DNA of 64,000 bases from Antarcticibacterium sp. 1MA-6-2 (GTDB lineage Bacteria > Bacteroidota > Bacteroidia > Flavobacteriales > Flavobacteriaceae). Made by a program: the position numbers and the translations under genes. Location: positions 1,798,001 through 1,862,000 of the forward strand of contig NZ_CP091036.1 in the NCBI RefSeq assembly GCF_021535135.1. Direction: 5' to 3'. This document shows positions 6,839-61,716 of the stretch, in pieces. The notes under the pieces were generated by a model that saw nothing but the letters and a program-made list of their open reading frames with translations, did no database searches and was not told where the DNA came from. Within the stretch, counting starts at the first letter, position 1; each line of letters opens with the position of its first letter.

Positions 6839-7352
6839 TTAATATTTCAGCAAAGAATCTACAGGATGCGCCGTTAATTTGTCGCGCCCGCTCAGGAAAG
6901 ATATTTCTACAAGAAAGTTACAGTGAGCAACTTTTCCTCCCAGTTTCTCAATTAAATTACAGGCAGCAAAAGCAGTTCCGCCAGTGGCCAGGACATCATC
7001 GTGTAAAAGAACATTTTCTCCAGGTTTTATAGCGTCTTCGTGTATTTCCAAAATTCCTGTTCCATATTCCAGGGCATAAGCTTCTTTTACAGTTTTATAT
7101 GGCAGCTTTCCCTGTTTTCTCACCAAGTACAAAGCCAGCGTTTAATTTCTCAGCTAAAAGAGTAGCAAAGAAAAATCCCCGTGACTCAATTCCCACCACC
7201 TTATCTATTTTTATGTCGCCCAAATTCTTAAGAAACAAATTGACGGCAGTTCGCATTGCCTCCGGCTCTTGCAGCAAAGGACTAATATCTTTATATACAA
7301 CTCCTTTTTGGGGGAAATCCTGAATATTCCGGATGTAATTTTCTAAATTCAT
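6839..7352 (-). CDS. apt: Adenine phosphoribosyltransferase, frame broken once (probable sequence error)
   Basis: Converts adenine and PRPP to AMP (purine salvage, cytoplasm). Residues 1-80 (MNLENYIRNIQDFPQ...) and the rest (ending HPVDSLLKY) are in different frames. The PRPP loop is clear in VLLHDDVLATGGTA. The break is at 7122-7129, where the minus strand reads GTACTTGGTG; replacing it by GTACCGGTG gives the family-conserved FVPVRK and a 170-residue protein, the usual length. The 514-base span is one base over a multiple of three, as this predicts. Likely intact in the organism. Confidence 0.9.
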
Positions 7353-7387
7353 AGGTGCAATATACTCAAGCCCGGGATCTCCTCAAA

Positions 7388-8038
7388 CTATTCGCTCATT
7401 TTCTCTGCCCGTTCTTTCAGCTTCTTTACTGGCGTAGGATAAGGATTCATTTTTAACGTTTTTGCCATATGCACCATATTATGGACCATTAGCAGGATCA
7501 TATTATTTGTAAATTCATGTTTATTTCCTTCAGCTTCAATGTAACTTGGTCCTGGTCCTGCCTTTCCTACGTAGTAAGTGAAGCCGTTGACGGGAATTGT
7601 GAAACCCTGTTCACTAAGATCGAAAACAATGCTGGAAATCGCTTTTTTCGCACCGTCTTCATTACCATCTACCATTACACCTCCTACTTTGTTATAACTT
7701 AGATATTGTCCATTTTCAGCAGTATCCTCACTCATTACTCCATCGAATCTCTCATTAACGACTTTAGCGACAGAGCCCCTGTCTCCTCTCCAAATAGGAG
7801 TAGCAATAATTACCATGTCTGCAGCTTTTACTTTTTCCAGGATCATGGGCCAGTCATCTCCTTCTCCTTCATCGGAGGTGTTTCCAAATTTCACATTATG
7901 ATCTACTACTCTCACCGATTCGGTTTTTACTCCTAATTCATTGAAGATTTTTTCCGCTTCGTGTATAAAAGCTTCGGTATTTGAAGTTTCAGGTGATTTC
8001 TTTAGAGTACAGTTTAAGAAAAGTGTTTTCAGTTCCAT
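7388..8038 (-). CDS. Flavodoxin-fold NAD(P)H-dependent oxidoreductase
   Basis: 216 residues with the flavodoxin/FMN-reductase fold: N-terminal strand and FMN phosphate loop (LNCTLKKSPETSN), central strand ADMVIIATPIWRGDRG near residue 75 and a later GGVMVDGNEDGA strand. Such proteins bind FMN and reduce quinones, nitro- or azo-compounds with NAD(P)H; the exact substrate cannot be told. It lies 35 bases upstream of apt on the same strand and may share its transcript. Confidence 0.85.
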   Translation of the reverse strand: MELKTLFLNCTLKKSPETSNTEAFIHEAEKIFNELGVKTESVRVVDHNVKFGNTSDEGEGDDWPMILEKVKAADMVIIATPIWRGDRGSVAKVVNERFDGVMSEDTAENGQYLSYNKVGGVMVDGNEDGAKKAISSIVFDLSEQGFTIPVNGFTYYVGKAGPGPSYIEAEGNKHEFTNNMILLMVHNMVHMAKTLKMNPYPTPVKKLKERAEKMSE

Positions 8039-8175
8039 TTTTCAGCTATTTAAAATTATTTGATAATCAACTTAATGAAATATTTAATGATTTCCGGTTA
8101 AGACGAGGTTAAAACATACCTCCTGTTTTTAGAGCGGAATTGTATATCTTTAGATTTCATTTAATAATGTTTATT

Positions 8176-9535: not shown

Positions 9536-11901
9536 ATGCAACTTACACTCAAGAAATTTTCTCCGTTTTTCTTTCTATTATTCTGGTTCCACATCTCCTT
9601 TTCCCAGCAGAGCGAATTGACTGTAGAGAAAATTATGCAGGATCCGGAATGGATGGGAACCTTTCCTTCTAATGTGCGCTGGGGGGAAGACAGTAAAACA
9701 ATCTATTTCAAATATAATCTGCAAAAAGATCCTGAAGATTCTCTTTACAAAATAGCTCTTTCTGATAAAAATAAAATTGAGAAAGTGGCGTATGCAGAAG
9801 AAAAGAGGCTAATCCCGGGATCTGGTGACTTTAATAAAAAACGAGATAAAAAAGTATATGTAAAGGATGATGCACTTATACTATACTCTCTGACGGACAA
9901 AAGCAGCAGGGAACTTATTGAATTAAGTGGTATTAATAATCCTCAATTTATGAGTGACGAAAATAAAATTTCCTTCAGTTTAGACGATAATATTTTTGTT
10001 TACAATCTGCAAAACGGAAGTATAAATAAGATTACAAATATTAGTTCAGGAGAAAAATCTGATAACGAGACTAAATTGAATGATAAGGACGATTGGGTGA
10101 GAAACGAAAATCTTGGATTACTGGAGGTCGTTCAGCAAAGGGAAGACAAAAGGGAAGCAAGCAAAAATTATCGGAGTCAGACTGCAGGAGAACCTTTTAC
10201 TTTCTATACCGGAAAAAGATCTGTTTCAAACCTACAGCTTTCTCCCGATGGTAAATTCGCAACTTTCAGTCTATTTACAAGAACCGACAATAAAAGAACC
10301 GATGTTCCTAACTATGTAGATGCATCGGGTTATACAGCAAATCTGCCTGCGCGAAGTAAAGTAGGCGACGATCCTACCAAAGTAGAACTTGCCGTCTACA
10401 ATCTTGAGAAGGATACCATTTATATGGTGCAAACCAATGAACTACCCGGAATAAAAGATCTTCCTGATTATACTGCAGATTATCCCGATAAGGAATGGGA
10501 AGAAAAGGAAAGGGAAGTCATTCCTTCTGGCCCATATTTTTCTGATAACGGAACACAGGCTGTGGTAAATGTTCGCTCCCAGGATAATAAAGACAGGTGG
10601 ATCGCGCTGCTTGATCTTGAAACCGGAGACCTCAAAAACCTGGACCGCCAAAGAGATGAAGCTTGGATTGCGGGCCCCGGGATAGGTTATTCTTTTAGCG
10701 GAGGAACAATGGGTTGGTTACCGGATAACAGGAACATTTATTTTCAAAGCGAAGAAACCTAGGTTATTCTCATCTTTACTTATTGGATGTGAATTCTGGA
10801 AACAAGAGGGCTTTAACAAGCGGAAATTTTGAAGTCTTTGATCCTTTTATTTCGAAAGATGAGAAGAACTGGTATTTAGCGACTTCTGAAGTTAATCCGG
10901 GGGAAAGGCATTTCTACAGGATGCCACTTATGGGAGGTAAGATGGAAAAACTTACGCAGATGGAAGGAAATAATGAAGTGAATCTATCTCCTGATGAAAA
11001 ACATATGGCCATCCTTCACTCCTACAGCAATAAACCGTGGGAGCTTTATCTGAAGAAAACTTCAGCAAAAGCTGAAGCAGAACAATTAACACAAGGTCAA
11101 AGTGAAGAATTTCGTGCCTATGACTGGAGAGAACCTCAGCTCGTGAAGTTCAAAGCAGAAGATGGTGCAATGGTTCCCGCCAGGTTATACAAACCTGAAA
11201 ACGCGAACGGAGCAGGGGTCATTTTCGCACACGGCGCAGGCTACCTTCAAAATGTGCATAAATGGTGGTCCAGTTATTTTAGAGAATATATGTTCCACAA
11301 CCTGTTAACAGATCTCGGGTATACAGTTTTAGATATTGATTACCGCGGAAGTGCTTACTACGGAAGGGACTGGAGAACAGGAATTTACCTTCACATGGGA
11401 GGAAAAGATCTAAGCGACCAGGTAGATGGTGCAGAGTATCTTGTTGCCGAACATGGTTTGGACGCAGAAAATATTGGCATCTACGGCGGAAGTTATGGCG
11501 GATTTATAACGCTGATGGCATTATTTACTGAAGCTGAAACTTTTAAAAGTGGTGCTGCATTGCGTTCTGTAACAGACTGGGCACATTACAACCATGGCTA
11601 TACCTCAAATATTTTAAATAATCCGGCTGATGATCCTATCGCATACCGCCGCTCCTCTCCTATTTATTTTGCTGAAGGCTTAGAAGGAAATCTTCTCATC
11701 GCCCACGGAATGGTAGATGTAAATGTACATTTTCAGGATGTTGTAAGGCTGGCGCAAAGGCTTATAGAATTAGGAAAAGAAGATTGGGAACTGGCCGTTT
11801 ATCCCGTAGAGGATCACGGATTTGTGGAACCCAGCAGCTGGACAGATGAGTACAGGAGAATTTTGAAATTGTTCAATGAAACCCTCCTGAAGAAAGATTA
11901 A
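9536..11901 (+). CDS. S9 family (prolyl oligopeptidase/DPP-IV-like) peptidase, frame broken once
   Basis: Signal peptide (about residues 1-22), long beta-propeller, then an alpha/beta-hydrolase domain. The nucleophile elbow GGSYGG is near residue 655, the Asp lies in [12 protein letters not shown] and the His in VEDHGF, so the triad is complete. Expected to cleave short peptides in the periplasm. The break is at 10757-10764 (ACCTAGGT); read as ACCGGT it gives [12 protein letters not shown] in continuous frame and a 787-residue protein. The span is 2366 bases, two over a multiple of three, as expected. Its stop overlaps the convergent rtcB stop by four bases. Confidence 0.9.
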
Positions 11902-13111
11902 TCTTTATAGGGATCAAATGTTTCTTCTCCTGCCATTGCAACACCTATCGGGTGGAGGCGGTGAAGTACTTCAATTGTTTCTCCCTGATGGCTTAGCACC
12001 TCATCAAGATTTTTATAGGCTTCCGGAGCTTCATCTGCACTTAGCACCTCTTAATTCGACTTTGTTTTTTAGCCTTGCTTTTACAGCATCAAAATCTACA
12101 GCTCCTTTTGACACGATTGTCGGTCTCTTTTTACCGTCCTTCCCTCTCATCCATTTAGTTTTTCCCGCAGCTTTTCGGCGGGACATTACTCTGCCTGCTC
12201 CATGCACTGTTGAGAAAAGTCCGTCGCGGGAAAGTGGGGTATCCTTAGCTTTTACTATTACAGAAGTATCCTCCATATTAGCACCAATAAATCCCATTTG
12301 CCCGGGAAAGGCGGGAGTACATCCTTTTCGAACTACCCAGTATTTCTCGCCGAAATGTTCCTCCTGCCATGCAAAATTATGATGGTTGTGAACTTCAAAA
12401 GTTGGTTTCCCTGCACCGAGAATTTCCAGTACTTTATCTACAACCACATCCCGACTAAGCATAAGCAAATTCTCCAGCCAGGTTCATCGCTGCAATATAG
12501 TCCTGTCCAATAGCTGAATTTATGTCGAACAAGATAGGTTTTGAATCCATTCCTCCTTCTTTGGCATGTTCAAAAAATCCTTTGTTCTGTGACATAGCAA
12601 TGAATCCGGTGGTGGTTTTATGTCCGAATCCGCGGGAACCAAAATGAACCCCTATCCACAAAAACCCATCATCATCTTCAAAAAGATCTACAAAGTGGTT
12701 TCCGGAACCTACTGTCCCCAATTGTTCTACAGAAAGATCCAGCAGGCGGCGTTGTGGGGCAAAGTCGGCTTTGGCAATCTTTTCAAAAACCGGATGATCC
12801 AGAGGTTCATTGTTCGTGCGACCGACACCAAAGGAGATCCTTTTAAAGATCTCATCCATTACTGCCGCTACATTAATTTCTGAAGCTTTGACAGTTGTTT
12901 TTACAGCTTTGTTTCCGCACGCAATATCAAAACCCACTCCGGAAAGGGAAATATGGTTTTTATAAGCCACTGCTCCTCCAATGGGATGGCCGTACCCGTA
13001 ATGAGCATCAGCAGTTAGAACAGCAATGTCTTCCGGTCCTACACAATTCTGAATTTGTTTTATTGAATTTTCATCTATTAATTCTTTTCCGAAGATTGTC
13101 AATTTCTGCAT
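11898..13111 (-). CDS. rtcB: RtcB-type RNA ligase, frame broken twice
   Basis: Joins 2',3'-cyclic phosphate and 5'-OH RNA ends with GTP and Mn2+; a role in RNA repair is known for the family. About 403 residues when joined. Metal/GTP residues are visible: Cys in GVGFDIACG, His in [17 protein letters not shown], and the guanylated His in [10 protein letters not shown]. The breaks are at 12454-12460 (restored AYA-GR-DVVVDK) and 12039-12045, where GCCGGT in place of GCTAAGT gives LRGAGADEAP, the conserved RtcB C-terminus. The true end, DPYKD followed by TAA at 11898-11900, lies beyond the apparent stop at 12031. The length of 1214 bases fits two single insertions. Confidence 0.92.
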
Positions 13112-13381: not shown

Positions 13382-14430
13382 ATGCAAAAAGTAAAGGTTG
13401 CTATAGCCGGATTTGGAAAGGGAGGGAGAATTTATAATTCACCAATTATCTCAAGTGTGGAAGGTTTGGAAATAACAAAAATACTCACTTCCAGTCCAGA
13501 CAATATAGCTGCCGCAAATGGAGATTTTCCAAAAGCACAGGTAGTTTCTTCTTATGAAGAACTTCTTGGAGATCCGGAAGTAGATCTGGTGGTAATTACC
13601 ACTCCTAACCATCTTCATAAACAATATGTACAAAAAGCATTAAATGCTAGAAACATGTAGTGGTTGAAAAACCTTTTACGCCAACTTCTGCCGAAGCTAA
13701 TGAGTTAATTGGACTCGCAAAGGAAAAAGACCTTATTTTAAGCATCCACCACAACAGGCGCTGGGACAGTGATTTCCTTACGGTGAGAAAATTGCTTCAG
13801 GAAAAGAAGCTTGGAAGTGTGGTAGAATATGAAGCTCATTTTGACAGATTTCGTACCGAAATAAAATCAGGCTGGAAGGAAGAACAGGAGAACCCGGGCA
13901 GCGGAATTCTCTATGATCTTGGCAGCCACTTAATAGATCAGGCTCTGGTCCTGTTTGGCTTGCCAAAAGCTGTTTATGCCGATATCAGGATACAGAGAGA
14001 TGGAGCCACAGTTCCCGATAATTTTGAACTTCTGCTATATTATTCCGGATTAAAAGTAACTCTGAAAGCCGGAATGCTGGTAAAGGAAAAAGGACCAACT
14101 TTTATTATTCATGGCACCAAAGGAAGTTTTGTAAAGTATGGCGACGATCCTCAGGAAGAAAAAATGAAAGAGGGATTAAAACCAAAAGATATTCAGGATT
14201 GGGGAAAGGAACCGGAGAATATTTTCGGAACCTTAAATACTGTTGAGGAAAAGACAAAGGTCCCAAGTGAAGAAGGCGCCTACATAAAATTCTATGAGAA
14301 TATTTACAGAGCAATAACGGAAAACGAAGAACTGAAAGTAAAACCTGAACAGGCCAGGGACGTCATTAAAGTTATTGAAACTGCGTTAAAAAGCCAGGCA
14401 GAGGGAAGAAAAATTGAATTTCCGGTTTAG
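13382..14430 (+). CDS. Gfo/Idh/MocA family NAD(P)-dependent oxidoreductase, frame broken once
   Basis: Rossmann domain with the nucleotide loop AGFGKGGRIYNSP at residues 9-21 and the EKP catalytic-lysine motif in VVEKPFTPT, then the usual C-terminal alpha/beta substrate domain (DLGSHLIDQAL). Substrate is probably a sugar or cyclitol but cannot be told. The frame is lost at 13646-13650 (GCTAG before AAACATG); GCCGGC there gives LNAGKHVVVEKPF, the canonical family sequence, and a 349-residue protein. This is the only break of the RCCGGY type that looks like a net loss of one base. Confidence 0.88.
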
Positions 14431-14575: not shown

Positions 14576-15977
14576 TAACTCTTAACCTCTCTTCTTTCCT
14601 CTTTACCTGCTTTCATTCTGGAGAAATAGCTCTTAGCTTCTTTTAAAACCCTGGGCGCCAGAATGAGAGTTGAAATCATAGTTGGAATAGCCATTAAAGC
14701 GAAGAAACCATCTATAAGATTGATCATCATACTTAATGAAGTAGTGGCTCCAATAAGAATACTCAAAATATAAAAATAATTGTAGTAGTGTTTTTTATCT
14801 GCTCCCAAAAGAAAGGACAGGCATTTGGTTCCATAATAAGAATAAGAAAAGAGGGAAGAAATACTAAAAATGGCAATACATACCATCAAAAGATAATTTC
14901 CAAAAACCGGAATGGAAGCATCAAAAGCTGCGGCGGTAAGGCTTACACCATTTTCCTCAGTCGACTGCCACACACCTGTCACTAAAATCGCCAGGGCAGT
15001 TAATGTACACACAACAAGGGTATCTATTGCAGGACCGAGCATAGCAACTAATCCCTCTCTCATAGGTTCATTTGTCTTGGCAGCTCCATGTGCCATTGGC
15101 GACGTACCAATGCCCGCTTCATTTGAAAAAGCACCTCTTCTGATTCCCAGTATTATTAATCCTCCAACAACTCCACCCAAAAATGAATCTCCCCTGTAGT
15201 TGTTCGCCGCAAAAGCATCAGTAAAGATCAGAGAGAAATAATGCGGTACCTGCTCAAAATTGACAAAAAGAATAATAAGAACTGATACAAAATATAAAGC
15301 AACCATTGCCGGAACCAGCTTTCCTACAGTTTTGCTTATCCTGTTAAGACCGCCAAAGATGACCACAGATGTCAGGATGACTAAAACTACACCTATTATA
15401 AGGTTGGTTACAAATCCTGTTTCAATTCCGTTGGGTGCGAGGATGATGAAATTTACTGCCTGTGTTAATTGGTTGACATTAAAAACAGGTAGAGCGCCTA
15501 CTAATCCCGCAATACTAAAGAATACTGCCAAAGGTTTCCACTTTCTCCCAAGTCCTTCTACAATAAAATACATAGGGCCTCCCTGTATTTTACCTTCACT
15601 GTCTTTCCCGCGATACATAACAGCAAGTGTACAGGTAAAAAACTTTGTAGCCATTCCAATAATTGCACTTATCCACATCCAGAAAATAGCCCCGGGTCCA
15701 CCAATTGCAATTGCTACCGCTACACCTAAGCAATATTTCCCATACCTACTGTGGCAGCAAGTGCAGTGGCCAGAGCCTGAAAGTGACTGATCTCCCCCGG
15801 ATCATTTGGATCATCATATTTTCCACGCAAAACCTGCACCGCATGGATCAAATATCTAAAAGGTAAAAACTTCGAAATCACCAGGAGGTAAAATCCGCCG
15901 CCTATGAGTAATATTAAAAGTGGAAGGCCCCAAACAAAAGATGCAAATTGGGCAATGAAATTATCTACTGTAGTCAT
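14575..15977 (-). CDS. Alanine/glycine:cation symporter (AGCS), frame broken once
   Basis: Sodium-coupled amino-acid uptake in the inner membrane; about 466 residues with some ten membrane helices. I start at the ATG at 15975-15977 (MTTVDNFIAQF), since the extra 19 codons upstream look non-coding. Family signatures: ATVGMGNIA, GGPMYFI and FSNEAGIGTSPMAH. The break at 15724-15731 (minus strand GCTTAGGT) becomes GCCGGT and restores [22 protein letters not shown], one of the most conserved AGCS segments. The 1403-base span fits a two-base gain. Confidence 0.92.
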
Positions 15978-16975: not shown

Positions 16976-18281
16976 TTAAAATTTAAAACTTAAGCCAGAA
17001 TAAACTCCGAAGTAATAAGGTTTAACATCAGATGTGTTGTTGAAGGTGTTAATCTGGTATTTAAAAATAGGCTCAACATTTATCTGGAATTTTGAGGAAA
17101 TGTTATAATCTAATCCCACTCCCATATTTGCGCTATAACTTACATTATTAAGGTTTCCGGCTTCACCAAAAGAAGTAGTGGCGGCTCCGGCCTCAAGTGT
17201 AACATTATTTTCGCTAAGAAAAAGAGTGCTGGCCCCACCAATAATGTTTAAACCAAATTTTTTATCAATAACCCCATATTTTAGTTCCACGGGAACCTCA
17301 ACAAAACCAAGATTTTGATTAATATTTCCCATAACAGGTGAAGCAAGGGTTACTGCCCGGGCATCGTTATTTTCCACAGCCATAGCACTTATGGCAGTAC
17401 CGTATGAGACATCCCTGGTGTTATAACTGAGATCAACTTTATTTATACCCGATCGTATTGAAAGTCTATTTGAAATTTTATATGCTACAGCGACACCGTA
17501 GGAAAAAGATATATCGCCTCTTCCCTCATTGCTTAGCCAATTGATCATCGATGGGACTACCCTTTCCCAGGTTATCAAAATACACAGCGGCGGCAGTAGT
17601 TCTAAACTGGAATCTTTTCTCCCCGGCAGCTTTAGAGTTAAGATCTTCAATTGATTCCTCTTTTTGAGCTTCTAAACGGAGGTCTTTAAGATCGCCTTCC
17701 AAATTTGCTACTTCAGTTTCAGGATGTAGCGGAACCTCTGGTTTTTCCGAAAGAAGTAATTGTTCTTGAGATAGTTCGCCAATTTCATTTTCCTGATAAT
17801 CTGAAGTGAGAGCAGAAGGATTTTCCTTTTGACCAATACTCTCTGTATTACTTTTTGCTACATATTTATAGCCTTCAGAAGAAGAAGAAGAAGAAGAAGA
17901 AGAAGAAGAAACCTGCTGATTGTTTTGCCGAACTAAAGTATTTAAACGCAAATAGTTTAAAAGTTCCCCGGACTCAAACATATTCTGCTCAAATTCTTCT
18001 GAAGTAATATTTACTTTCCTGTTCTCTTGTGGGATATCAAAATAAACAACTTTGGTAGCCGGGCTGCTGGTGGAATAGAAGTAATTATATCCAACAAGAG
18101 CTAAAAGTGATAGCACCGCAGCCACTCCTGCAAGCTGGTACCATAAAGGAATAATCCTTTTTTTATTTTCCTTTTCTGGTAAACGTGCAGCAATACCCGC
18201 CCACAAATCCTCACGGGGAATTGTTTCGAGATTCTCATATCTCTTCCTGAAGAGCTGTTCCAGGTTATCTTGTGGTCTCAT
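16976..18281 (-). CDS. Inner-membrane-anchored protein with C-terminal beta-barrel-like domain, partner of the ECF sigma factor; frame broken once
   Basis: About 434 residues when joined. Residues 1-45 are hydrophilic and resemble anti-sigma N-termini (MRPQDNLEQLFRKRYENL), residues 46-66 are one membrane helix (LAGVAAVLSLLALVGYNYF), then a low-complexity linker with eleven Ser in a row, then a C-terminal outer-membrane beta-barrel-like domain ending GVYSGLSFKF. It overlaps the upstream sigma gene by four bases. The break at 17531-17537 becomes GCCGGC to give QLAGNEGRGDISFSYGV. I infer that it controls or responds through the sigma factor; the barrel homology is from the alternating beta pattern and the aromatic C-terminus. 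Confidence 0.75.
17878..17911. repeat. GAA trinucleotide repeat encoding poly-serine
   Basis: About eleven GAA units on the plus strand (TTC/TCT on the coding strand) encode a serine run in the linker of the 16976-18281 protein. Changes in copy number would alter linker length without losing the frame. Confidence 0.85.
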
Positions 18282-21725: not shown

Positions 21726-22988
21726 TTAAATGTGTATACGGAAAATATGCCCTTCACTATAGTTATAATGAAGCTGAAGTTTATAGGATTCTGCAATTGC
21801 TCTTGCTATAGCCAAACCTAATCCGTTTGAAGGAACTTGAGAACCCGATCTATAAAACCTCGTAAAGATGGAATTCTCATCTAGAGGCGTATCTCCAGAA
21901 TTTGAAAAGCATACCGATGAAGAAGTTACTTCCACCTCCACTATTCCACCTTCAGGTGAATGAATAATGGCATTTTTTAGGAGGTTGGTAAATATAATTT
22001 GAGCTAGTTCCTGATTCATTTGTAGTTCAATAGATGCATGTTCAGTAAACCTAATTTCAACATTTTTTGAGTCTGATATATCCTTAAAATCCTCAATAAG
22101 ATTTTTTAAAATGTGGTTTACTTCTACCTTCTCCTGTTCAGGAAATTGTTCATTTTGAATCCTGGATAATAAAAGAAGAGATTTGTTATAGCGAGTAAGA
22201 CTTTCCAGTTTACCCATTGTTTTTTCTATTAATTCCATATGTTCTCTGCCTAATCCTTCAGTTTCCAATAATTGTTCAAGATTATTTAAAGCTATTGCAA
22301 GTGGAGTTTGCATTTCGTGAGAAGCATTTTCTATAAACTCTTTTTGGCTCTTATAACTTTCCTGTGCCTTGGATATAAATTTATTAATTCGGGAATTCAA
22401 TAAGTTAAACTCATCTACAGGAGTGGGTTGAAATTCCGGCTTTTTATTATCCTGAATTTTAAAGCTTTTTAATTGAGAAAGAAGCACATAAAAAGGATTC
22501 CAAATTCTTTTTAGCACTAAATTATTGAGCACCAGGATACTTATTATTAAACCTAAGCATATAGAAAAAGGAGGGATAGCAGCAAGTCCTCTATTAAGTC
22601 ATCTTCCTCTACCATGGAAGTAATGACCTTAATTTTATAATAGGAGCCATCCATCTCAAACACACTTTCAAGCAATCTCACTAAGCTCAAAATCTTCCTC
22701 ATTAAGCATATACATTAAAGTATCGCGGTAGGACTCAGTATAATTTTTATACTGCTCGTATTGTACTTTTTTAATGGTATAATAGCCTTCATCAAATGCA
22801 GTTTTTTCTAAAATACTTTTATTAGCTAGTGCTTTCTGGATCACCAGGATCTTTTGATTTTCCAGGCCATCATCCAGGCTATCGTAAATCTCATCCAGCA
22901 TCTGGTAGTAGAATATAACGGCCCATAGAGTGATTAAAACAAATAACAGGAATGCAAAATAGGAAGTGGAAAGATTGAGGAGTTTCAT
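21726..22988 (-). CDS. Sensor histidine kinase, frame broken twice
   Basis: Two membrane helices flank a periplasmic sensor of about 130 residues (first helix about residues 8-30). The HisKA box is NASHEMQTPLAIALNNL, and the ATPase shows N and G boxes (FTNLLKNAIIHS, SNGLGLAIARAIAES). Breaks at 22680-22686 and 22551-22558 become RCCGGY and give FEPVRLLESVFEMDG and LYAGLIISILVLNN (second helix). The net gain of three bases matches the in-frame 1263-base span, about 419 residues. Overlaps the response regulator by four bases. Confidence 0.9.
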
Positions 22989-23916: not shown

Positions 23917-25177
23917 ATGGATTTAATGCTAATTGTCTTCTTCATTAGCTTAATTATTATTCTCTCAGGAGCCGTTTATAAGAAACTACAATCCTATTCT
24001 ATTACTGAACCTTTTTTGGCCATAATTTTGGGTTTGATAGTAGGTCCGGATGTTTTTAATTTAATAGAATCTGCACCTGCTTCCGAAGAATTTAAAATTC
24101 TTAAAACCGTTTGTGAATTCACTATTGCGATGGCTCTAATGGCAACTGCACTAAGGCTGCCTCAAAAATTTTTCACAAAGAATGTACAAACTGCCTCTCT
24201 GCTGGTAATCTTTGGAATGCTGTTAATGTGGCTACTTGGTTCCACTGTCTTTTATCTCATCATTCCTGATTTATCTATAGGCCATAGTTTGCTTTTAGGA
24301 GCAATAATTTCTCCTACAGATCCTGTAGTTGCTTCCACCCTTACCAGCGGAAAAACTGCGGAAAAATATCTCCCGGGTTTCATCAGGAACAACTTATCCT
24401 TCGAATCTGGTATGAATGATGGCCTGGCCTACCCTATAGTTTTTCTGTCGTTGTTGATCGCGGGAATGGCAAATTTTGACTTGGCGGAATGGACAACAAG
24501 AATATTATTATATGAAAATATATTATGTGCTGTGCTTGCATATCTGGTAGGTTCCGGTGCTTAGCTATCTTTTTAAAAAAGCCCACCAGGCAGGTTTTAT
24601 GAACCTAAAAACCATACTCCCTTTTTCTCTGGCGGTCGCACTTTTCCTCTTAGCAGGATTTAGTGCTATAAAAATGAACGGAATTATTGCTGTTTTTGCC
24701 GGGAGCCTGGCCTTTGCGCAAGATATTACGGCTAGTGAAGAACTGGAAGAAAAGCACATTCAGGAATCTATGGAACGTTTAACAACCACTCCTGTTTTTT
24801 TCATTCTGGGGCTAATGCTGCCCTGGCAGGAATGGTTCTCCCTGGGCTGGAAGGCGATTGCTATTCCCATTTTGATCTTACTCTTTAGAAGGATACCTGG
24901 GATCCTGCTGCTAATGCCGTTCCTGCCAAAGCTTAAAAATAAAATTTATTCATCGCTGCTCGTGGGATGGTTTGGACCTATAGGCGTGGCAAGTTTATAT
25001 TATGCTATCTCAATGACAGAAAAATCGGGAATGGAGGATGCCTGGGTAATTCCCAGTTTAATTGTTTTTGCTTCTACTGTTGTTCACGGTCTTACAAGCA
25101 TACCTTTTGAAAAATTATACTATAACAAAGGTTCCAGGGCAAATGAACTGGAAAATGAGGATCGAAATCTGGATTAA
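23917..25177 (+). CDS. Cation:proton antiporter (CPA1/NhaP-type), frame broken once
   Basis: About 419 residues and roughly twelve membrane helices. The ion-site region SPTDPVVAS is near residue 135 and NDGLAYPIVFL near residue 168, typical of the NhaP group; exchanges Na+ or K+ for protons. The break at 24559-24565 (GCTTAGC) becomes GCCGGC and gives YLVGSGAGYLFKKAHQ. The 1261-base span is one over a multiple of three, as predicted. Confidence 0.9.
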
Positions 25178-25913: not shown

Positions 25914-27900
25914 ATGAGCAGGAAAGAAGATGAGATTACATCAATGGAAATTAATTCTCCAAGAACCGCAGAACGACCGGGACCAACTCCTTCCCAAGAG
26001 AATGGATGTTGTTCTACTGATCAGCTAGGTTCACCATGGAGAAGAAGAAAAGGATTCATACATTCCTACCATTATAAGCTTAGTTTTATTATTAACCGGA
26101 ATTGCACTGGATTTCTTTGATGTGGAATGGTTTAAAGGCTATTTAAGGATATTAGTATTTGGTATAGCTTACGTTCTGGTAGGAGGAAAAGTTGTAAAAC
26201 ATGCCGTAACTAACATAGGCAGGGGAAATATCTTCAATGAATTTTTCTTAATGACCATTGCCACTCTTGGTGCGTTCTACATAGGAGAATTTGCCGAAGG
26301 TGTTGCGGTAATGCTGTTTTATGTAATTGGAGAACATTTTCAGGAAGCAGCAGTGGCCCGTTCCAGGCGTTCTATTAAAGAATTAATTGATAACCGTCCT
26401 GAAAAAGTAAGTGTGCAAAAAAATGGAAGGTTTGAAGATGTTGATCCAAAAAATGTAAACATTGGAGAAATAATTCAGGTCAAACCCGGGGAAAAAGTAG
26501 CTCTTGATGGAATAGTTCTTAATGAAGGTTCCTCCTTTAATACAGCCGCACTTACCGGAGAATCCAAACCCGACACCAAAAGAAAAGGGGAAGCCGTCAT
26601 GGCTGGGATGATTAACCTGGAAAAACTTGTAGAGCTTGAAGTGACCTCCCGCTATGAAGATAGTGCCCTCTCTAAAATTCTAAAACTCGTAGAAGAAGCA
26701 AGTGGCAGAAAAGCAAAAACCCAACAGTTCATTACAAAATTTGCCAAAATTTATACCCCAATAGTAGTGTTTATGGCTATTGGTTTAGCTCTACTACCTT
26801 ATTTTCTTGTAGAAACCTATGTCTTCGACGACTGGCTTTATCGGGCCCTGGTATTTCTGGTGATCTCCTGTCCCTGTGCACTGGTAATTTCCATACCTCT
26901 GGGATATTTTGGTGGAATTGGAGCGGCTTCACGTAATGGCCTCCTCTTTAAAGGTTCTAATTTCCTGGATCTTATTACAGAAGTGGATACTGTTGTAATG
27001 GATAAAACAGGAACATTGACAGAAGGGGTTTTTAAGGTACAGGAAGTAAGTGTTGAAAATATTTCAAAAGCTGAATTCCTCGCTTTAACTGCGGCTCTGG
27101 AAAGTAAATCCACTCATCCTATCGCCTCGGCAGTTGTAGAACATGCGGGAGATAATTATAAACAACTTGAAGTAAAGGAAGTAGAAGAAATAGCCGGACA
27201 CGGGCTCAAAGGAATAGTAGAGGGGAAAAAACTCCTTGTAGGGAATGCAAAATTATTGAGGAAATTTAATATTACTTACGATCCTGCAATAGATGAAATT
27301 GTCGAAACCATAGTAGTGGTTGCCATAAACGGCCAATATACAGGCTATATTACCATTGCCGATGCAATAAAAGAAGATGCCGCAGCGGCCATATCAAAAC
27401 TTAGGGAATATGGGATTATTTCTGTTATTATGCTCTCGGGAGATAAAGATTCTATTGTTCAAAAAGTTGCCGGGCAATTAAATCTCGATAAAGCTTATGG
27501 TGGACTCTTGCCCCAGGATAAGGTGACAAAAGTGGAGGAACTTAAGGAACAGGGTAAAAAAGTAGCATTTGTAGGAGACGGGATTAATGATGCTCCCGTA
27601 ATTACCTTAGCTGATGTAGGAATAGCTATGGGTGCTTTAGGATCTGATGCAGCGATTGAAACAGCCGATGTGGTAATCCAAACCGATCAACCTTCCAAAA
27701 TAGGAACTGCTATTAAAATTGGGAAGAAAACAAGGCAGATCGTGTGGCAAAACATAATCCTGGCCTTCGGTGTAAAAGCTTTGGTGCTCACTTTTGGAGC
27801 ATTTGGGGTAGCTTCTTTGTGGGAAGCAGTTTTTGCTGATGTAGGTGTCGCATTCCTTGCTATTTTAAATGCAATTCGATTGCAGAAAATAAAATTCTAG
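25914..27900 (+). CDS. Heavy-metal translocating P-type ATPase (Zn/Cd/Pb group), frame broken once
   Basis: Exports divalent soft metals with ATP. About 661 residues. I choose the ATG at 25914 (MSRKEDEITSMEIN); the upstream ATG at 25848 adds unrelated sequence. Motifs: TGES actuator loop, SCPCALVIS metal-site helix, DKTGTLTEG phosphorylation site, and GDGINDAPV. No N-terminal CxxC metal domain is seen, only a short CC-containing tail. The break at 26024-26030 (GCTAGGT) becomes GCCGGT and joins TDQPVHHGEEEKDSY to the first helix. The 1987-base span fits one extra base. Confidence 0.92.
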
Positions 27901-28088: not shown

Positions 28089-28822
28089 TTAAGCTGTGGA
28101 AATTTCCTGTAATTCTCTTTGAGTTAAATTTTTCCAGCTTGACTTATAATCATCCTGATCAATATTTTCATCTACTCGAAAAGTGGGATCTAAAGCCTTA
28201 AAGGCTTCCACAAGAACAGAGAATGGCCTAAGTATCCTGTAATTTGAACAGTTTTTCCCCTATAGCTAATAAGCATAGTGGGAAATCTTGTTATCCCTTT
28301 TAACTTCAGTTCCTCAAGATCTTTCCTAAATAAATCAGATGATTCATCAGATAAAAATGACACCTCAAATTTTTCTTTATTCAGAATATCTTCAGCTTCC
28401 AGTTCTTCAGCAATGTGCATTATAATATCTGTATCTCCTATGTTCTTTTTATGGATCATAACGGCCTCTCTCAATTCCCGCAGCATTGCTTCTCCGGCTA
28501 TCCAGGATTGTTGTTCTGCTGCCTTTACTGCCATACAAGCCAGGTATGAAGTATCCACAGGATTATTAACCCACATATGTTCTTCTATAGGCTGTCCTGA
28601 AAGATGTTTCGCCTCCACCCACAAGGGACCCATTTGAGAAGGTTTTTGGATGTTGTTTAACTGATCTGTAAAATGCTTCCAATCTCTTAGAAGTCCTCCC
28701 ATGACGTATTTAATTTGTAAACGTTCCCTAAGTAAATACCGCAGCTTTCGCATTTGAGGTTCGAGGCCCCAACTCCAACAACAAAGAGGATCTGTAAAAT
28801 ATACAAGCTGAAATTTATCCAT
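28089..28822 (-). CDS. DsbA-family thioredoxin-fold protein, frame broken once
   Basis: About 243 residues, cytoplasmic in appearance (no signal peptide). N-terminal active-site-like motif DPLCCWSWG at about residue 11, helical insertion, and a cis-Pro strand (ITRFPTMLI) near residue 190. This resembles the YjbH/FrnE-like DsbA branch; an adaptor or isomerase role is possible. The break at 28226-28233 becomes RCCGGY and gives TGYRPFSVLVEAFKALDP; the protein then runs to TAA at 28089-28091, about 100 bases past the apparent stop. Confidence 0.85.
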
Positions 28823-30232: not shown

Positions 30233-32898
30233 TCAGTTGTTTTGTTTTATCGCCTTTTTACTGTAAACCAGGTTTTCTGTAATGTTATTCTGTACCGGGA
30301 TCAAAAGACTGGCTACATATCCACCTATGACACAAACCGGAATAGCTATGAGAGGATAAATATAGAAATTGAGCGGAGTATAATACTTAACCAAAACCAA
30401 TACGATTACACTAAGCACTGCTCCCACCAATGTTCCTGCCCAATTAGCTTTCCTAAAGAAGATCCCGAGAATAAAAATACTAGCTAGTGCACTACCAAAC
30501 AATCCTACGATTTCCTGAAAGAAGAAAAACAGGGAAGCTATGGGGAAGGCAGCCATAAAACAAGCCACACCAGTACCCAATACACCCACACCTATCGTCA
30601 CCCATTTAGCGACCCTCATCGCATTATCTTCAGAATAATTATTAGAAAATCTTTTGTAGTAATCAATGGTGACTACAGTAGAAACACTATGCATGCTGCT
30701 GTCCAGACTGGACATGGATGCTGAATAAATACCTGCAATTACCAGCCCTGCTACCCCTGGAGGTAGGTGGTTTGCTATAAACAATGGAAAAATCCCATCA
30801 TTTTGCATCCCCACGGCAATAAAATCGGGATTATCCTTAAAAAACACATAAAGGAAGGTACCCATAGCAAAAATGAGAAGTCCTGCCGGAATAGAAATAA
30901 TTCCGTTTAACCAGATACTTTTTCGGGAAGCTGCCTCATCAGCTGTAGTAAGATATCGCTGTACCACGGCCTGATCTGTTGTATAAGGTGCAAAATTAAG
31001 GGCGAAGGAACCAAGGAAGAGTGACCAGGTTACAACTTCGGTCCAACTCCATCTAAAATCAAAGAGTTTTAATTTCCCGTCTTCCAAAGCTGTATTAAAG
31101 ATATACCCCAAATCTCCAATGTCCACGGCTATATAAATAAGACCTAAGATTAGGCCTCCTATAAGTACTACTACCTGAATAACATCAGTCCAAATAACCG
31201 CTTCAATTCCCCCTAATACAGTATAAAGAATGGCTAAAACTCCCATAAGGACAATTGCAAGGTAAATGTCTATCCCAACGACCGTTGAAAGTGCCAGCGC
31301 CGGAAGGTAAAGGACCACTCCCATCCTTGCAAGCTGAAAAAACAGGAAGGAGGCACTGCCAAAAATTCTTATAACAATATTGAAACGCTTTTCAAGATAT
31401 TCATAAGCGGTGGTAATATTAAGTTTTCTAAAAAATGGCAGATAGTAAGTAATGACAATTGGTACAATTAAAAGAATGGTAAAGTAACCTAGATACGCCT
31501 GCCAATCATAAGAATAAGCCAGGGCGGGTTGTGAAAGATAGGTAATGGCGCTAAGCATGGTGGCATAGATACTCAAACCTGCTGCCCACCAGGGAATACG
31601 ACCTCCTGCCAGAAAAAAATCTGAAGTACTGTTATTTCTTCGGGAAAAATACCAGCCTATACCTATAACTAATGCTAAATAGGTTATTAAAGTTATATAA
31701 TTTACCAATCCAAAATCGGCCCTCTGGGGTTGAATGTTAATCTTATTAATTTGGGGTGTTCTTATACCCGGAGCAATTTCCCCATAAGCAATAATTATTT
31801 GATCTCCCCATTGTTCAGCATCTGCAACTAGTTGAGTAGATCCCGGGATTTCACCTCTGCGACTCCAGGTATCTGTTATTGTGTGGTAAGCCCAGATCGT
31901 TCTTGAAAAATTGGTATTTTGAAAGATCCTGGTAATTTCCATTTGCAGGGAATCTATCTTTTTTGAATCTTTTGTCTGCTCAAGTTCCTGCAGTTCATTT
32001 TGAAGTGCCAATCTTTCTTTCCATAGCTGATTTTCTCCCCCTGCTCCTCCAAAAATTACAATGTGGGCATCTCCCAGCTCTAAAGCTAAGTGCAGCTCCT
32101 ATATATCCTCCCGTTAAACCCGGGGTGCCATTATTTGGAATAGAGGATTTTTGAATCCAGTTGTTACGAAGGGGATTGTACTCATATACATCATCCAAAA
32201 ATTGATTTGGATCTTTTGCATCGGGATTAAAATATGTGCCGCTGAAAACATATACACAGTTTGTTTTTCCATTATTTTGACTTACAACCACTTAGCTGTA
32301 TCCTCCCGGGTCCCGGTAATCCTGGAAGTTCTTCCCATTTGTCATTTCTATATCTAAAAAAATATTTGCTGGCTCTTCCTCCACTTTCTTCCTGACCACC
32401 TACTACATAGATATCTTTACCAATGCTGGTGGCCTGCATGTTTGCCAGCGGAACCGGGAGCGGAGCCTGCTCTTCGATCTCTACCCGTTCACTCACAGGA
32501 TTCCATTTTAACAGAAAAACATCGTTATAAGTCCCGTCCTCATTATTTCCCCCAATACACAGAACCCCCTGTGGAGTACTGACTGATGCTCCATAAGCCA
32601 AAGGCCGTGGAAGCTGATTTTCTATACCTTTAACCCATTCAAAGGTCTCACGATTCTTCTTTAAGACTGCAATAGAATTATACCAGGCCTTATTACCTCC
32701 ATCCCAAACCGGGGTTCCGGGAAAATTTGCACCTCCTGCTATTATGAATACATCGTTATGTACACCAGTATAAGCACCATTGACTCCTTTTATATCCTGC
32801 AGTTGGGCAATTGAATCCCAGTTGAACTGAATCTTCTCTTCAACCTGTGCAAAAGAAAAGGAGAACAATAAAAGAAGACTAAACTGAAGTAGTTTCAT
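30233..32898 (-). CDS. NanM-like kelch mutarotase fused to a sodium:solute symporter (sialic acid uptake), frame broken twice
   Basis: 887 residues when joined (2666 bases, two over a multiple of three, fitting two single insertions). Residues 1-18 are a signal peptide; about 20-340 are a kelch propeller like N-acetylneuraminate epimerase (FIIAGGANFPG, GVLCIGGNNEDG, YVVGGQEESGG, VFGGAGGENQLW). The C-terminal 500 residues are an SSS transporter with some 13 helices (RRNNSTSDFFLAGGRIPWW, LLSAITYLSQPA-type segment). So the mutarotase sits on the periplasmic face of the transporter. Breaks at 32290-32296 and 32085-32091 become RCCGGY (restoring GRIQPVVVSQNNG and APALELGDAHIVIFGG). A GntR-type operator lies upstream at 32935. 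Confidence 0.88.
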
Positions 32899-40616: not shown

Positions 40617-41779
40617 TTATTCCTTTCGATCCTGTTGCTTTAATTCATCCTGCCCATCGGTTAGCCATTCAAGAGAAAAACTGGTGAATAAATTTCTGGA
40701 GTAATCATCGGCTTCAAAAAAAACGCCTATCTCTCCATTGGCTAAAATTGTAAGATCTGAATAAGCTGCTCCTCCCGGATAAATTGTCTTTCCCTCACTC
40801 CAGGTTTTACCTTCATCGTAACTTATACGCACTGTCAGGTTCTTTCTTGCATCGGCACTATTGGAATTCGAAAACAACAACTAAGGTCTTTTTCATAGCC
40901 ATCTTCTTTGGCTGTATATCTAATTATGCTTGCATTATTTCCAGGATCGGTTAATTCAGAAGCCGGATTGGTTTCCCAGGTTTTTCCTTCATCTTCAGAA
41001 ATATGAACATAACGATGCCCTTCCCCAGTATTTACGCGTGAGTTTATCATATACCTGCCATCACTTAACTCAATCACCTTAGACTCATCTGCAGGCTTTA
41101 TTGGAGTATCAATGAAAAACCAGGTTTTACCGTGATCATCACTACCAAACAAATGAAGACCACTATCAAGATTTACCAAAGTGTGTAGAAGCCTGCTGGT
41201 ACTTGTTTGAATTCCCCGACCAGATGTAATAAATTTAAAATCTTTGTGCCACTCTGGTTTAGAGATTTGCTGTGTAATATCCATAAGCTCGGTCCAGGTT
41301 TTACCATTATCAGCACTCTTGACAAACTGGAGGTAATACACATCTTTTTCACTGTCGAGATTCATAAAATTGTAGAATAAAAATATTTCTTTAGTTTCTT
41401 CATCTACTATCATCGAAGGATCTGAAGCTGACTCGCCTAAGGGAAAATCTACAACTGTTTCAATATCGCTCCAGGTTTTTCCTCCATCTGTACTTCTACG
41501 TTGTACAATATTAATATCTCTACTACCCCTTAAATCTGCACAAGAAGGCACCCGTTCATCAATAGCTGCTATAAGATCTCCATTTGGAGCAGTTATTAGG
41601 GACGGGATCCTGTAACAGGCAATTTCGTCATTTTGTTGCGCGTTGAATAAATCCTTAAAAACAAGATCTTTATTATTCTTTTCATTTCTCTCCTGGGCAA
41701 TTTCAGGTTTTTCACTCTTCTTTTCATTGCAACTTATAAAAAGAGCACTGAACGTAATTAATAAAAAATAATTCTTCAT
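40617..41779 (-). CDS. Sialidase (GH33 exo-alpha-sialidase) lipoprotein, frame broken once
   Basis: Releases terminal sialic acid from glycoconjugates. 386 residues from the ATG at 41777-41779 (MKNYFLLITFSALFISC, lipoprotein signal; Cys at 17). The YRIP motif carries the first triad Arg, and five Asp-boxes are visible (STDGGKTW, SADNGKTW, SDDHGKTW, SEDEGKTW, SYDEGKTW), as in six-bladed sialidases. The break at 40880-40887 becomes ACCGGT and gives EKDRLLFSNSNSADAR with another conserved Arg-region strand. The 1163 bases fit a gain of two. Probably surface-exposed next to the SusCD pair. Confidence 0.93.
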
Positions 41780-46976: not shown

Positions 46977-47008
46977 TATTGATTAAAATTTTTTTATTCT
47001 TTTCTGGC

Positions 47009-47908
47009 TTATATTTTTGATAAATATGGGGTAAGACCTATGGAATTAAATCTTTCTTCAATTTGTTTCAATTGTTCAATTGTAAGACTTACGTGTGGGT
47101 AACGGGATGGTCCACAGTCCACTCCAAGGATCTTCATATAACTTTTTCCAGCACCGTTAAAACCACCAAACGAGGCAAGAGTTTCCACAAACTGGATTCC
47201 CAATCCCTGGAGCCTGTTGGCTTCTTCAATATCATTAGCTTCAAAAGCTTTCTTTATAGCAAGATATAGTGGAGCAAGATGATTATAGGTACTTCCCACC
47301 CAGCCTTTGGCACCTAAAGACAAGCTTGAAAGAAAAGCCTCATCTACACCAAAGAAGACATTTAGATCCTTAGCGTCTGCATTTACTTTTTGAAACTCTA
47401 CTACATTATTCTCTGTAAATTTTATACCAGCAAAATTGTCTATTCTTTCCTTTGCTTTTGCCGAAAATTCCAACATTGAAAATTGAGCCCCTGTAAGAGC
47501 TTAGCAGATGGTAATAAAAAAAGGGAGACCTCCTGCATTCTCTGCAATAGCAGCACAATAATCTACCAGTTGATCCATCCTTCCAGGAACAAAATAAAAA
47601 GGAGCTATAGCAGCTATAGCATCGGCTTTGTCTATGGAATAACGGGCCATAGCCGTTGCTTCCCTTAAATTATTGTGACCAACGTGATTAATAAGGTACA
47701 GATCGTTAGATTTTTCCTTTGACCACTGTTCCAATAGTTGGTTTCGTTCTTCTGTACTTAAGGAAACAAAATCCCCGGTTGACCCATTTATAAATACGCC
47801 GTGTACTTCATTCTGTTTAAGAAAATTGGAATAAACTCCTATTATTCCCAAATCTAATTCTCCATCTGCTTTCATAGGAGCGTAGGTGGCTGCAAATAAA
47901 TTATTCAT
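47009..47908 (-). CDS. nanA: N-acetylneuraminate lyase, frame broken twice
   Basis: Class I aldolase that splits Neu5Ac to ManNAc and pyruvate. 299 residues from the ATG at 47908. GSTGDFVSLSTEERNQLLE is the GSTGE-type pyruvate site and the Schiff-base Lys is in GIKFTEN near residue 165. Two compensating breaks (7 T instead of 8 at 47514-47522, and GCTAAGC for GCCGGC at 47499-47505) hide the catalytic Tyr segment; corrected it reads PFFYYHLPALTG, the conserved YYH.P motif. The total of 900 bases is in frame, as predicted by one loss and one gain. Confidence 0.92.
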
Positions 47909-47917
47909 CAATTTTGT

Positions 47918-47934: not shown

Positions 47935-48493
47935 CAAAGAAAAAGAAAAAAATTAGAAAATCAACTATAGAAAAGGAAAATTTTTTTGTGCTATAAATAA
48001 ATAGTCCGGAGAAATTGAATTACATCAGAAATTATTAGGATGATTCAATTTTAACGGACTAAATGCAAGTAGTATGGAGGTGATAATCAGAAATAACACT
48101 TAACAGTTATGAAAAACTTTGACCCTATTTGTTTTGCTGAAAACACATTTTTAACGCAATGATGGAAGGTATTGGGTTTTATGAACCACAGGGAAATATC
48201 TCTAGACCCCAATATAAAAACATTCACTTTCTTATGGTGGTGCGCTTGCAATTTCAGAAGGCTAATATCTAATTTAGAGCTATTTTTTTGCAGAATTGTG
48301 TAGCTATGGTAGTCAGGAAAATCATTAATTAAAAAGATGCAGATATTTGGACAACGAATTGTAAGGCTTTTGCCTCCTGTTTCAATTCATACAACTTTCA
48401 GTCCTGGCTAAAATCCATTTTTGCGGGAAATATGGAACATAACAAATCAATAGAGCTAAGAGATTTCTATATGTTATGGCAGCTTTATCTAAC
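47935..48493. other. Intergenic stretch without a recognisable gene
   Basis: 559 bases separating the sialic acid genes from the sulfatase/galactosidase block. Stops in all frames; I see no gene, repeat or clear terminator. Confidence 0.55.
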
Positions 48494-49908: not shown

Positions 49909-49918
49909 TTTTACTTTT

Positions 49919-53498
<3,580 letters not shown>

Positions 53499-59785: not shown

Positions 59786-59893
59786 AAAACAGGACTCGCT
59801 TAAAAAGCGGCAAATTTTCTTGAAAATCTAGTTCAGAGAAGAAACTTACAGGCTTGTGCAACGGTTACTATTGTTGATCATAGTGCTTTTTTT

Positions 59894-60409
59894 TTAATCA
59901 ATTGCTTCCCACTTTTTTATAGATTCCACTTTACTATTTTTAAATTTTATAATCATTGAGTGGAATTTCCAACCTATTCCATGACCTTCCCTACCTAAAT
60001 TGTAATTCCAAATGGATGAAGTGTCCTTTTCTAAATCGAATGGATTGTAAGGTTCTCCAAGTAGGTTAAAAATTTCATTTTTTGTTCTTCCAATTAAGGT
60101 GTCGCTTTGAACTAAATTGGTAAACATCTCATGTCTATCATGAATGTTTTCACTCCAACTCCTCTTATTAAATTCTCTTGTTGGGTGATATTCATAGAAG
60201 AAGAAAGCTAAAATTGTCAGAATTATTAAATTATATATGAAAGGTGTTAAAATTAGCGTGGATAAGGTTGTCAGGAGAATTTTGATTTTTCCATTTTTAT
60301 ACCATCTGCTCAGTACTCTATAGATAAAATAGAATATCACGGATCCTAAGATCAGAAGGTAAAACCAATTCTTTAAAAAATCTATATGGGTTTCAAACAT
60401 TTTTATCAT
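59894..60409 (-). CDS. Membrane protein with BamE/SmpA-like domain, unknown function
   Basis: 171 residues. Two hydrophobic segments (about residues 14-30 and 46-70), then a soluble domain with LIGRTKNEIFNLLGEPYNPF, the typical BamE/SmpA-type helix-loop pattern (Gly-x-Thr/Lys ... Leu-Gly-x-Pro). Start taken at 60409, though the ATG at 60400 is equally possible. Lies directly next to the IS481-type element, which may have separated it from its original promoter. Confidence 0.75.
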   Translation of the reverse strand: MIKMFETHIDFLKNWFYLLILGSVIFYFIYRVLSRWYKNGKIKILLTTLSTLILTPFIYNLIILTILAFFFYEYHPTREFNKRSWSENIHDRHEMFTNLVQSDTLIGRTKNEIFNLLGEPYNPFDLEKDTSSIWNYNLGREGHGIGWKFHSMIIKFKNSKVESIKKWEAID

Positions 60410-60415
60410 GTTCGT

Positions 60416-61716
60416 TAAGGCACATAGTTTACAAAGTTAAAGGCACATCCTTTACACTAGATTCTGACTTAGCCTAATTGATACTTGTTTGTCTCTTATT
60501 TTCTTTTCGTTAAAGTAACCTAAAAATACTTCTCTGTAAAATACCCTCCAGATTCCGTTTCCCTGGTCTTCTACTCCAATGTATTTTCCCTTAAGTCCTG
60601 AGGTTAAAAATACCCAGTACACCGACTTCCACCTTAGTGATCCGTTTTGACATACTTTCATCACTTTCATGGTTGCAGGATAGTCATAATTGCGGACTTT
60701 TTCAGGGTACGGCCTGGTAGAAAAATCATGGCAATCGGCAGGTGTTTTCATTCCTAAAGATTCATGAGGCCTAACGTGGTTGTATTCTTTTACAAAGCGG
60801 TTTAAACTACGTTGTTGAGCCTTCAGATCGAATGATGAAGGTTTTGCGCAAGCTGCCTTTAAATCACGGTGCATACGCTCGTGACGCCCATTTTGATCTG
60901 GTCGTGCCGGGTCGGAATAAACCGGGTCAATTCCTAACTCGATAAACCAGTAGGACAGCCTGGTATATCTTTGAATAGCAGACACAGATCCAAAGGGACT
61001 TCCATTGTCGGTATGTATTTGTTTTGGGATGCCATACTTTCTGAAAACCTTTGTAAACTCTTGCTTGACAGACTGAAAGTTCTCTTTATAATGTCCTTTC
61101 GCTGTAAACAAAAACCTGCTCTTAGAATCAGCAATGGTAAGTGGATGACAGTATATTTTGTTGCCCATTAAAAACTTTCCTTTATAGTCTGCGCTCCAAA
61201 CTTCATTGCACTTCTTGGGATCAAAAATGGGGAATACTTACTTAACTCTGCGGCTTCTCTTTTGAGATTTAACCAGGCCATTTTTAAAGAGGATGTTATG
61301 GACAGTGACCACACTTGGAATAAGTTCTGCCGGATGCTCTTTAAACAACAAAATGCGGATCTTTTTAGCACCCCAGAGCATATGTTTGTCCTTGAGTTTC
61401 AGTATCGAACTTTCAACTTTAGAATTGGTCCTGTTGGGATGATTAATTGGCGCTCTTTCTTGTTCAATTAATCCTGATAATCCCATTTTTTCATAGCGGG
61501 AAATCAACTTGTAAGCAGTTGGCCGGGATATATTAAATGACCTACAAAGTTCTGTGATGGTGTAATTTTGAGTTAACCATTCGTGAATGAATTCTACCTT
61601 TTGTTCCATTTTAGTTTTTGCTTTCCAGACCATGATAAATCACTTTTTCAAGTAATTTATGAATCTTAAAAGTGTAAACTATGTCCCTTTAACTCTGTAA
61701 AGGATGTCCCTTTACC
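60416..61716 (-). mobile_element. Complete IS481-type insertion sequence
   Basis: About 1.3 kb. Each end carries two 22-base copies of a TAAAGG-N-ACAT-N2-TTTACA motif (60416-60460 and 61671-61716), inverted with respect to each other, around one transposase gene. I cannot see a clear target-site duplication. A remnant of a related copy lies 1.3 kb to the left. Confidence 0.85.
60452..61633 (-). CDS. IS481-family transposase with one in-frame TAA (probable miscall)
   Basis: 393 codons, single frame. N-terminal helix-turn-helix (TITELCRSFNISRPTAYKLISRYE) and an rve-type DDE core: Asp in VWSADYKGKF, Asp in IHTDNGSPF, Glu in RHERMHRDLKAA. The only interruption is TAA within GTAAGT (minus strand, 61241-61236) after RRVK. 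Read as GCCGGT it gives RVKPVFPIFDPKKCNEVW, the usual IS481 sequence. So the transposase is probably intact. This is the one RCCGGY-type error without a length change. Confidence 0.88.

Follow-up and report, generated by a model that had tools for sequence, protein, structure and literature searches.

The stretch of DNA considered here (the window) is a 64 kb segment of the chromosome of Antarcticibacterium sp. 1MA-6-2, a marine flavobacterium of a genus within the Flavobacteriaceae whose genome is assembled as one contig of 4,383,004 bases, and it contains many genes whose reading frames appear to be interrupted at short strings such as CTTAG, CTAAG or CTAG. The organism is not known to be linked to any disease. 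The motif RCCGGY (R, purine; Y, pyrimidine) is absent from the window, against 164 CCGG sites in other contexts (66 YCCGGR, 60 RCCGGR and 38 YCCGGY), in agreement with a preliminary description of the sequence, which had noted this absence beside more than a hundred CCGG sites of other types and had proposed that RCCGGY is a modified motif that is systematically miscalled. That proposal is supported by the depletion of the motif, by the match between gene breaks and lost sites, by variable spelling among copies of the same sequence, and by a gene cluster with a candidate modifying enzyme.

The preliminary description placed 22 breaks at CTTAG-type strings and held that RCCGGY restores the frame at each. 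Against a strict set of eleven forms, R(CTTAG, CTAAG, CTAG, CTTGG, CCAAG, CCTAGG, CTTAAG, CTTAGG, CCTAAG, CCTAG, CTAGG)Y, 18 of the 22 places match and four (13646, 35761, 40880 and 61236) do not; the set has 62 members in the window, and the 44 that lie away from the listed breaks are a mixture of in-frame miscalls and natural occurrences. Among the comparison genomes, a set that we call congeners, were Antarcticibacterium flavum, A. arcticum and Gillisia limnaea, and six of the breaks hold against intact congener genes. These are ACCAAGT at 7122..7128 (minus strand) in an apt-like phosphoribosyltransferase gene, where A. flavum and A. arcticum have RCCGGY; ACCTAGGT at 10757..10764 (plus strand), broken relative to three congeners; ACTTAGC at 12039..12045 and ACTAAGC at 12454..12460 (both minus strand) in RtcB, the latter corresponding to GCCGGC in A. 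flavum; GCTAGA at 13646..13651 (plus strand), outside the string set and broken relative to three congeners; and ACCTAAGC at 15724..15731 (minus strand) in a Na/alanine symporter gene. At 1366..1371 (no strand assigned), ACTAGT faces RCCGGY of three congeners, a substitution that leaves the frame unchanged.

The remaining 16 places, judged by open-frame geometry, stand only in part. The open frame switches at eight of them, namely GCTTAGC at 17531..17537, ACCTAAGC at 22551..22558 (with a histidine kinase piece on the lower-coordinate side), ACTAAGC at 22680..22686, GCCTAAGT at 28226..28233, GCTAAGT at 32085..32091 in a kelch-SSF gene, ACTTAGC at 32290..32296 in the kelch part and GCTAAGC at 34605..34611 in a SASA esterase gene, all on the minus strand, together with GCTTAGC at 24559..24565 on the plus strand, where a Na/H exchanger profile runs to position 176 of 375 before the site and Pfam is silent after it. 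Different frames flank the pair formed by GCTTAGT at 50787..50793 and GCTAAGC at 50860..50866 (both minus strand) in one beta-galactosidase gene, the former lying between the small-chain domain and the remainder of the gene. Four places gave no clear frame change: GCTAGGT at 26024..26030 (plus strand), at the open-frame start of a P-type ATPase, and, on the minus strand, GCTTAAGT at 34418..34425 and the two non-members of the string set ACTCAGT at 35761..35767 and ACTAAGGT at 40880..40887. At the last two of the 16, restoration of the frame fails as stated, since the open frame is identical on both sides and the sites are therefore in-frame stops: GCTTAGC at 47499..47505 (minus strand) interrupts a gene of the DHDPS family (profile positions 3-130 before it and 138-284 after it), and ACTTACTTAAC at 61236..61246 (minus strand), also outside the string set, interrupts a transposase gene that may be a true pseudogene.

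The wider neighbourhood, 224 kb of chromosome, was compared with 640 kb from three congeners. Frame-aware alignment of congener proteins covered 89,540 of the 224,000 bases (13,366 inside the window) and, once 32 of 160 events with flank identity below 50% or fewer than 8 aligned codons had been dropped, left 128 frame-break events at 58 places. Counting a break as string-bearing if an R..Y string lies no more than 11 bases away, 34 of the 58 places have a strict string and 42 a looser form, in comparison to 1.5% and 4.8% of random covered positions. When 5-mers at the breaks were ranked without reference to any string set, CCTAG was enriched 35-fold (8 places) and CTAAG/CTTAG 25-fold (24 places). 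The break is scored as one added base at 35 places and as two at 16 (by frame alone, two added bases are indistinguishable from one lost), with other shifts at 7. RtcB, a DnaJ protein, methylmalonyl-CoA mutase and a PurM-like gene are among the genes broken in this region; methylmalonyl-CoA mutase and the PurM-like gene have four such breaks each. The fate of the congener sites tells the same story from the other side: counting only alignments of at least 60% identity and sites at which 5 or more of the 8 flanking codons are identical, none of 197 well-flanked congener RCCGGY sites is kept here, 21 face a frame break and 5 face RCTAGY, while 138 of 620 other congener CCGG sites (RCCGGR, YCCGGY and YCCGGR pooled) are kept. 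Breaks fall at 21 of the 197 RCCGGY sites versus 6 of 352 YCCGGN sites; the 16 of 268 broken at congener RCCGGR sites exceed the other controls, perhaps because some of these are RCCGGY in this genome.

The scarcity of the motif extends to the whole chromosome, which holds 62 RCCGGY sites in total (42 ACCGGT, 19 ACCGGC/GCCGGT and 1 GCCGGC). The preliminary description had named abundant intact sites outside the window as grounds against its proposal, and such abundance is not observed. For ACCGGT, the 42 sites compare with 282-1166 across 15 of 15 congeners, and the depletion of RCCGGY is private to this genome among them. In a ranking against the three congeners limited to hexamers with an expectation of at least 15, the three most depleted hexamers are exactly the RCCGGY words, with observed over expected counts of 0/33, 1/123 and 1/62 (ratios of 0.00, 0.008 and 0.016), and the next hexamer follows at 0.27. 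A formula that assumes independence of the flanks gives 34.5 sites in the window (0 seen) and 147.6 in the 224 kb (2 seen), although for three congeners, in which 159-284 sites are seen, it predicts 160-377 and is thus up to a third too high. Scaled to the genome, we estimate an expectation of about 2,200-2,900 RCCGGY sites, of which, with 62 seen, about 97-98% would be missing. In frame breaks, lost sites and hexamer ranking alike, the errors gather on one short motif.

Such a deficit could in principle reflect true avoidance of RCCGGY under the cell's own restriction enzyme, with the breaks being unrelated pseudogenes or ordinary errors, and a fitting restriction-modification system is indeed present in the genome (described below). 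A related methyltransferase-endonuclease pair occurs in two other genomes, G394 in one contig and G336 in 140, whose methyltransferases are 63% and 61% identical and whose target is assumed from that similarity to be the same. These genomes have 492 and 607 ACCGGT sites, respectively, and five family members without the pair range from 100 to 1096. As these two carriers have ordinary ACCGGT counts, avoidance is not the likely cause; the breaks, moreover, coincide with lost RCCGGY. We regard avoidance as very improbable.

Sequences present in several copies offer a control within the genome itself. Over 1531 aligned columns, the three 16S genes differ only in three blocks. In the first block, where all 10 congener copies (taken from four genomes) have RCCGGY, the copies here read ACTAAGC, ACTAAGC and ACTGAC; in the second, where RCCGGY is present in 6 of these 10, they read GCTTAGGT, GCTAAGGT and GCAGGT. 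The third block (position 2178 of copy L155, aligned with L156 and L157) is of an ordinary kind unrelated to RCCGGY, with TT in L156 and CC in the other two. The 23S genes differ in 5 columns, also of the ordinary kind, and the 23S of A. flavum and A. arcticum has no RCCGGY. An Rfam search of the window itself gave no match. At 2.40 Mb lies a tandem array (2400900-2403700) in which a 220-base unit, encoding a repeated domain, occurs at least 12 times; an alignment of 12 units varies in 19 of 222 columns, 10 of which fall within two spots with seven spellings each. The first spot reads CCGGC in four units, which is RCCGGY when the preceding base is included, and CCCGC, CTGGC, CCAGC, CAGC, CTCGGC or CCGGA in the others, of which the CCGGA unit, with its further differences, may be a true variant. 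At the second spot, six units have CTAAGT and the others TAAGGT, CTTAAGT, CTAGGT, TTGAGT, CTAGAGT or TTAGGT. Copies of one sequence are thus spelled differently at the motif, beside ordinary differences (one of three 16S blocks, 9 of 19 array columns), and this also argues against avoidance.

5-Methylcytosine is prone to mutation, and deamination of the methylated base, or mutagenic repair or nuclease activity, might have destroyed the sites in the cell itself. Changes from C to T and from G to A do occur within the pattern (CTAG for CCGG), and passages of PMC7973814 describe 5-methylcytosine as mutable. Yet 35 of the 58 breaks are scored as one added base and 16 as two, which are not transitions; congener-conserved 16S positions and housekeeping genes are hit; a Vsr repair gene is present; and congeners, as well as carriers of the related system, are normal. 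Real mutation would hardly respell copies at a single motif, a behavior that points instead to miscalling, and we find the mutational explanation barely credible.

The preliminary description suggested that the genome might encode a methyltransferase for RCCGGY, and a search for the C5 family found one such enzyme, intact, at about 3.945 Mb, outside the window. It lies in a putative NmeDI-like cluster on the minus strand (coordinates computed from locus L057) consisting of a Vsr gene at 3,946,515-3,946,934 (PF03852 and TIGR00632, both above cut-off), the C5 methyltransferase gene at 3,944,957-3,946,141 (PF00145, 164.4 bits, likewise above cut-off), and a gene for a type II endonuclease of 359 residues that overlaps the methyltransferase gene at 3,943,900-3,944,979 (PADLOC REase_II, 437.8 bits). 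A methyltransferase that is 65% identical carries the source name "modification methylase NmeDIP". The enzyme is thus present, its predicted fit to RCCGGY draws on homology and on the name given by the source, and its presumed relation to the Neisseria NmeDI proteins runs through that name for the 65% identical homologue. For the endonuclease, Pfam returned no match, the PDB none at E values up to 1, and a plasmid search 155 records, none covering 80% of the query. The Cfr10I/Bse634I family profile, PF07832, which would fit the Cfr10I-like label of the preliminary description, was found in 0 of 16 genomes, including 0 of 14 controls; its absence says little, as the controls were silent too.

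According to passages of PMC7973814, the NmeDI system includes Vsr and an endonuclease that is predicted to read RCCGGY, and its modification is 5-methylcytosine; passages of PMC4081073 state that it cuts outside RCCGGY on both sides. As far as these descriptions go, the Neisseria meningitidis system and the present cluster both bring together genes for a C5 methyltransferase, Vsr and an endonuclease; the present cluster differs in belonging to a flavobacterium. M.NmeDI is also cited in PMC7973814 with RCCGGB, a specificity that does not fit here because RCCGGG is common, with 22 sites in the window, and only RCCGGY is affected. Cfr10I and Bse634I share the RCCGGY target, as given in passages of PMC4081073, but differ in that their family was not detected here, by a search equally silent in the controls.

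Taken together, we assign a probability of about 0.92 to the reading that the CTTAG-type strings are consensus miscalls of modified RCCGGY, and we consider it very likely that the cluster methyltransferase at 3.945 Mb and 5-methylcytosine lie behind the miscalling. From these lines of evidence, we infer the methylation, the modified base and the sequencing platform. The cell would modify a cytosine of the motif, very probably to 5-methylcytosine, through the methyltransferase of the Vsr-methyltransferase-endonuclease cluster. Native DNA would then have been read by a long-read method, presumably nanopore, with a base caller untrained on the modification, so that CCGG would be called as CTAG, CTTAG, CTAAG, CCTAGG, CTTAAG and the like, and the one or two bases changed or added around the central CpG would break the reading frames. 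That the cell's own methyltransferase modifies the motif is the most likely reason for its near-universal misreading. A variant of this explanation keeps the miscalling and attributes it to a different modification, for example an N4 methyl, a phosphorothioate or a bulkier cytosine, made by another enzyme. The enzyme search covered the C5 family rather than N4 or N6 enzymes, and the error pattern is silent on the chemistry. There is nevertheless one intact C5 enzyme with a named relative that, according to passages of the source, reads RCCGGY, and Vsr is as expected for 5-methylcytosine, making this variant unlikely. It is rather less likely still that RCCGGY carries a bulkier or second-step cytosine derivative instead of plain 5-methylcytosine, an idea suggested by the estimated failure of about 97-98% and the one or two added bases around the central CpG that are usual at breaks, which are apparently harsher than the descriptions of Dcm errors in the passages cited here.

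Several observations weigh against consensus miscalling of modified RCCGGY or complicate it. No frame break faces 176 of the 197 congener RCCGGY sites, most of which we expect to represent ordinary divergence. Sixteen of the 58 breaks have no such string; some of these lie in homopolymer runs and some are maybe alignment noise. The surplus of known strings over congeners in the 224 kb is smaller than the roughly 148 missing sites. Counted genome-wide on both strands, RCTTAGY occurs 1550 times versus 932 for the reversed pattern, a ratio of 1.66 that is a weak sign, given congener extremes from 309 versus 755 up to 967 versus 603 (1.60). The second spot of the tandem array has no RCCGGY in any unit, and the motif presumably stood there originally. 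When the first 16 kb were aligned with three congeners as plain nucleotides, insertions and deletions were not in excess at RCCGGY (4 of 39, with controls at 0 to 11% in seven classes of at least 18 sites); too few sites were conserved for this comparison to be informative, and frame-aware alignment of proteins across the 224 kb did separate the classes. Finally, 62 RCCGGY sites survive in the chromosome. We inspected 32 of these, and 28 enter the flank count, which omits the tandem array: in 26 of the 28, three or all four of the flanking bases are A/T, compared with 134 of 284, 108 of 179 and 88 of 159 congener RCCGGY sites, and it thus seems to be mainly in A/T-rich contexts that the caller succeeds. 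ACCGGT makes up 23 of the 28 and 42 of the 62 genome-wide, the former share being uninformative because those sites were drawn mainly from a list of ACCGGT.

Two regions of the chromosome bear side observations on these points. Five of the 62 survivors lie in 875400-887000, a region with a G+C content of 0.43 in which, by eye from translations, two metal-type P-type ATPases and an NhaA-like antiporter are encoded. Frame breaks in C/G and A homopolymers near 1764054 and 1741260 (window positions -33946 and -56740) form a second class of long-read error, of an ordinary kind.

Consensus artefacts of the methylation type are a known kind. Passages of PMC6591954 attribute nanopore consensus errors to Dcm methylation at CCWGG, and passages of PMC11389150 report strain-specific motif errors, lessened by PCR amplification in other strains, that take the form of purine or pyrimidine ambiguities. 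As far as those passages show, the present case would resemble them in that consensus errors are confined to the motif of a host methyltransferase, so that genes look altered while the DNA is normal; it differs in its motif, RCCGGY, in that nearly all sites are hit, and in that the breaks mostly carry added bases. Literature searches on RCCGGY and nanopore sequencing, on the topic in general and on NmeDI returned no title among the matches listed that reports such error at RCCGGY, and a search for Antarcticibacterium and nanopore gave no match. The RCCGGY motif and its near-complete loss make a strong new example.

Other features of the window were observed alongside the breaks. At positions 43618-55169, sulfatases and a beta-galactosidase accompany a SusC-like receptor and a DHDPS-like gene, which may together form a polysaccharide utilization region; among the 8 loci returned for the SusC-like receptor, the closest are from Capnocytophaga, at 59-60%. 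Transposase genes of two families lie next to each other at 60455-62956: one, of the integrase-core type, is interrupted by a stop, and the other, of the IS110 type, looks intact.

If RCCGGY is misread as we propose, many apparent gene breaks and parts of the 16S copies in this genome would be sequencing errors, not mutations. With an estimated 2,000 or more altered sites, a chromosome that looks finished would yield false pseudogenes, false gene counts and a wrong 16S sequence. Multi-copy genes act as built-in controls for such errors, and the tandem array at 2.40 Mb could be used to calibrate motif errors. The pattern could be screened for across public assemblies made from long reads only. 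It also suggests that the target of a restriction system may be proposed from an assembly alone, with the missing word giving the motif, the strings at the breaks giving the places, and the gene cluster then following from these.

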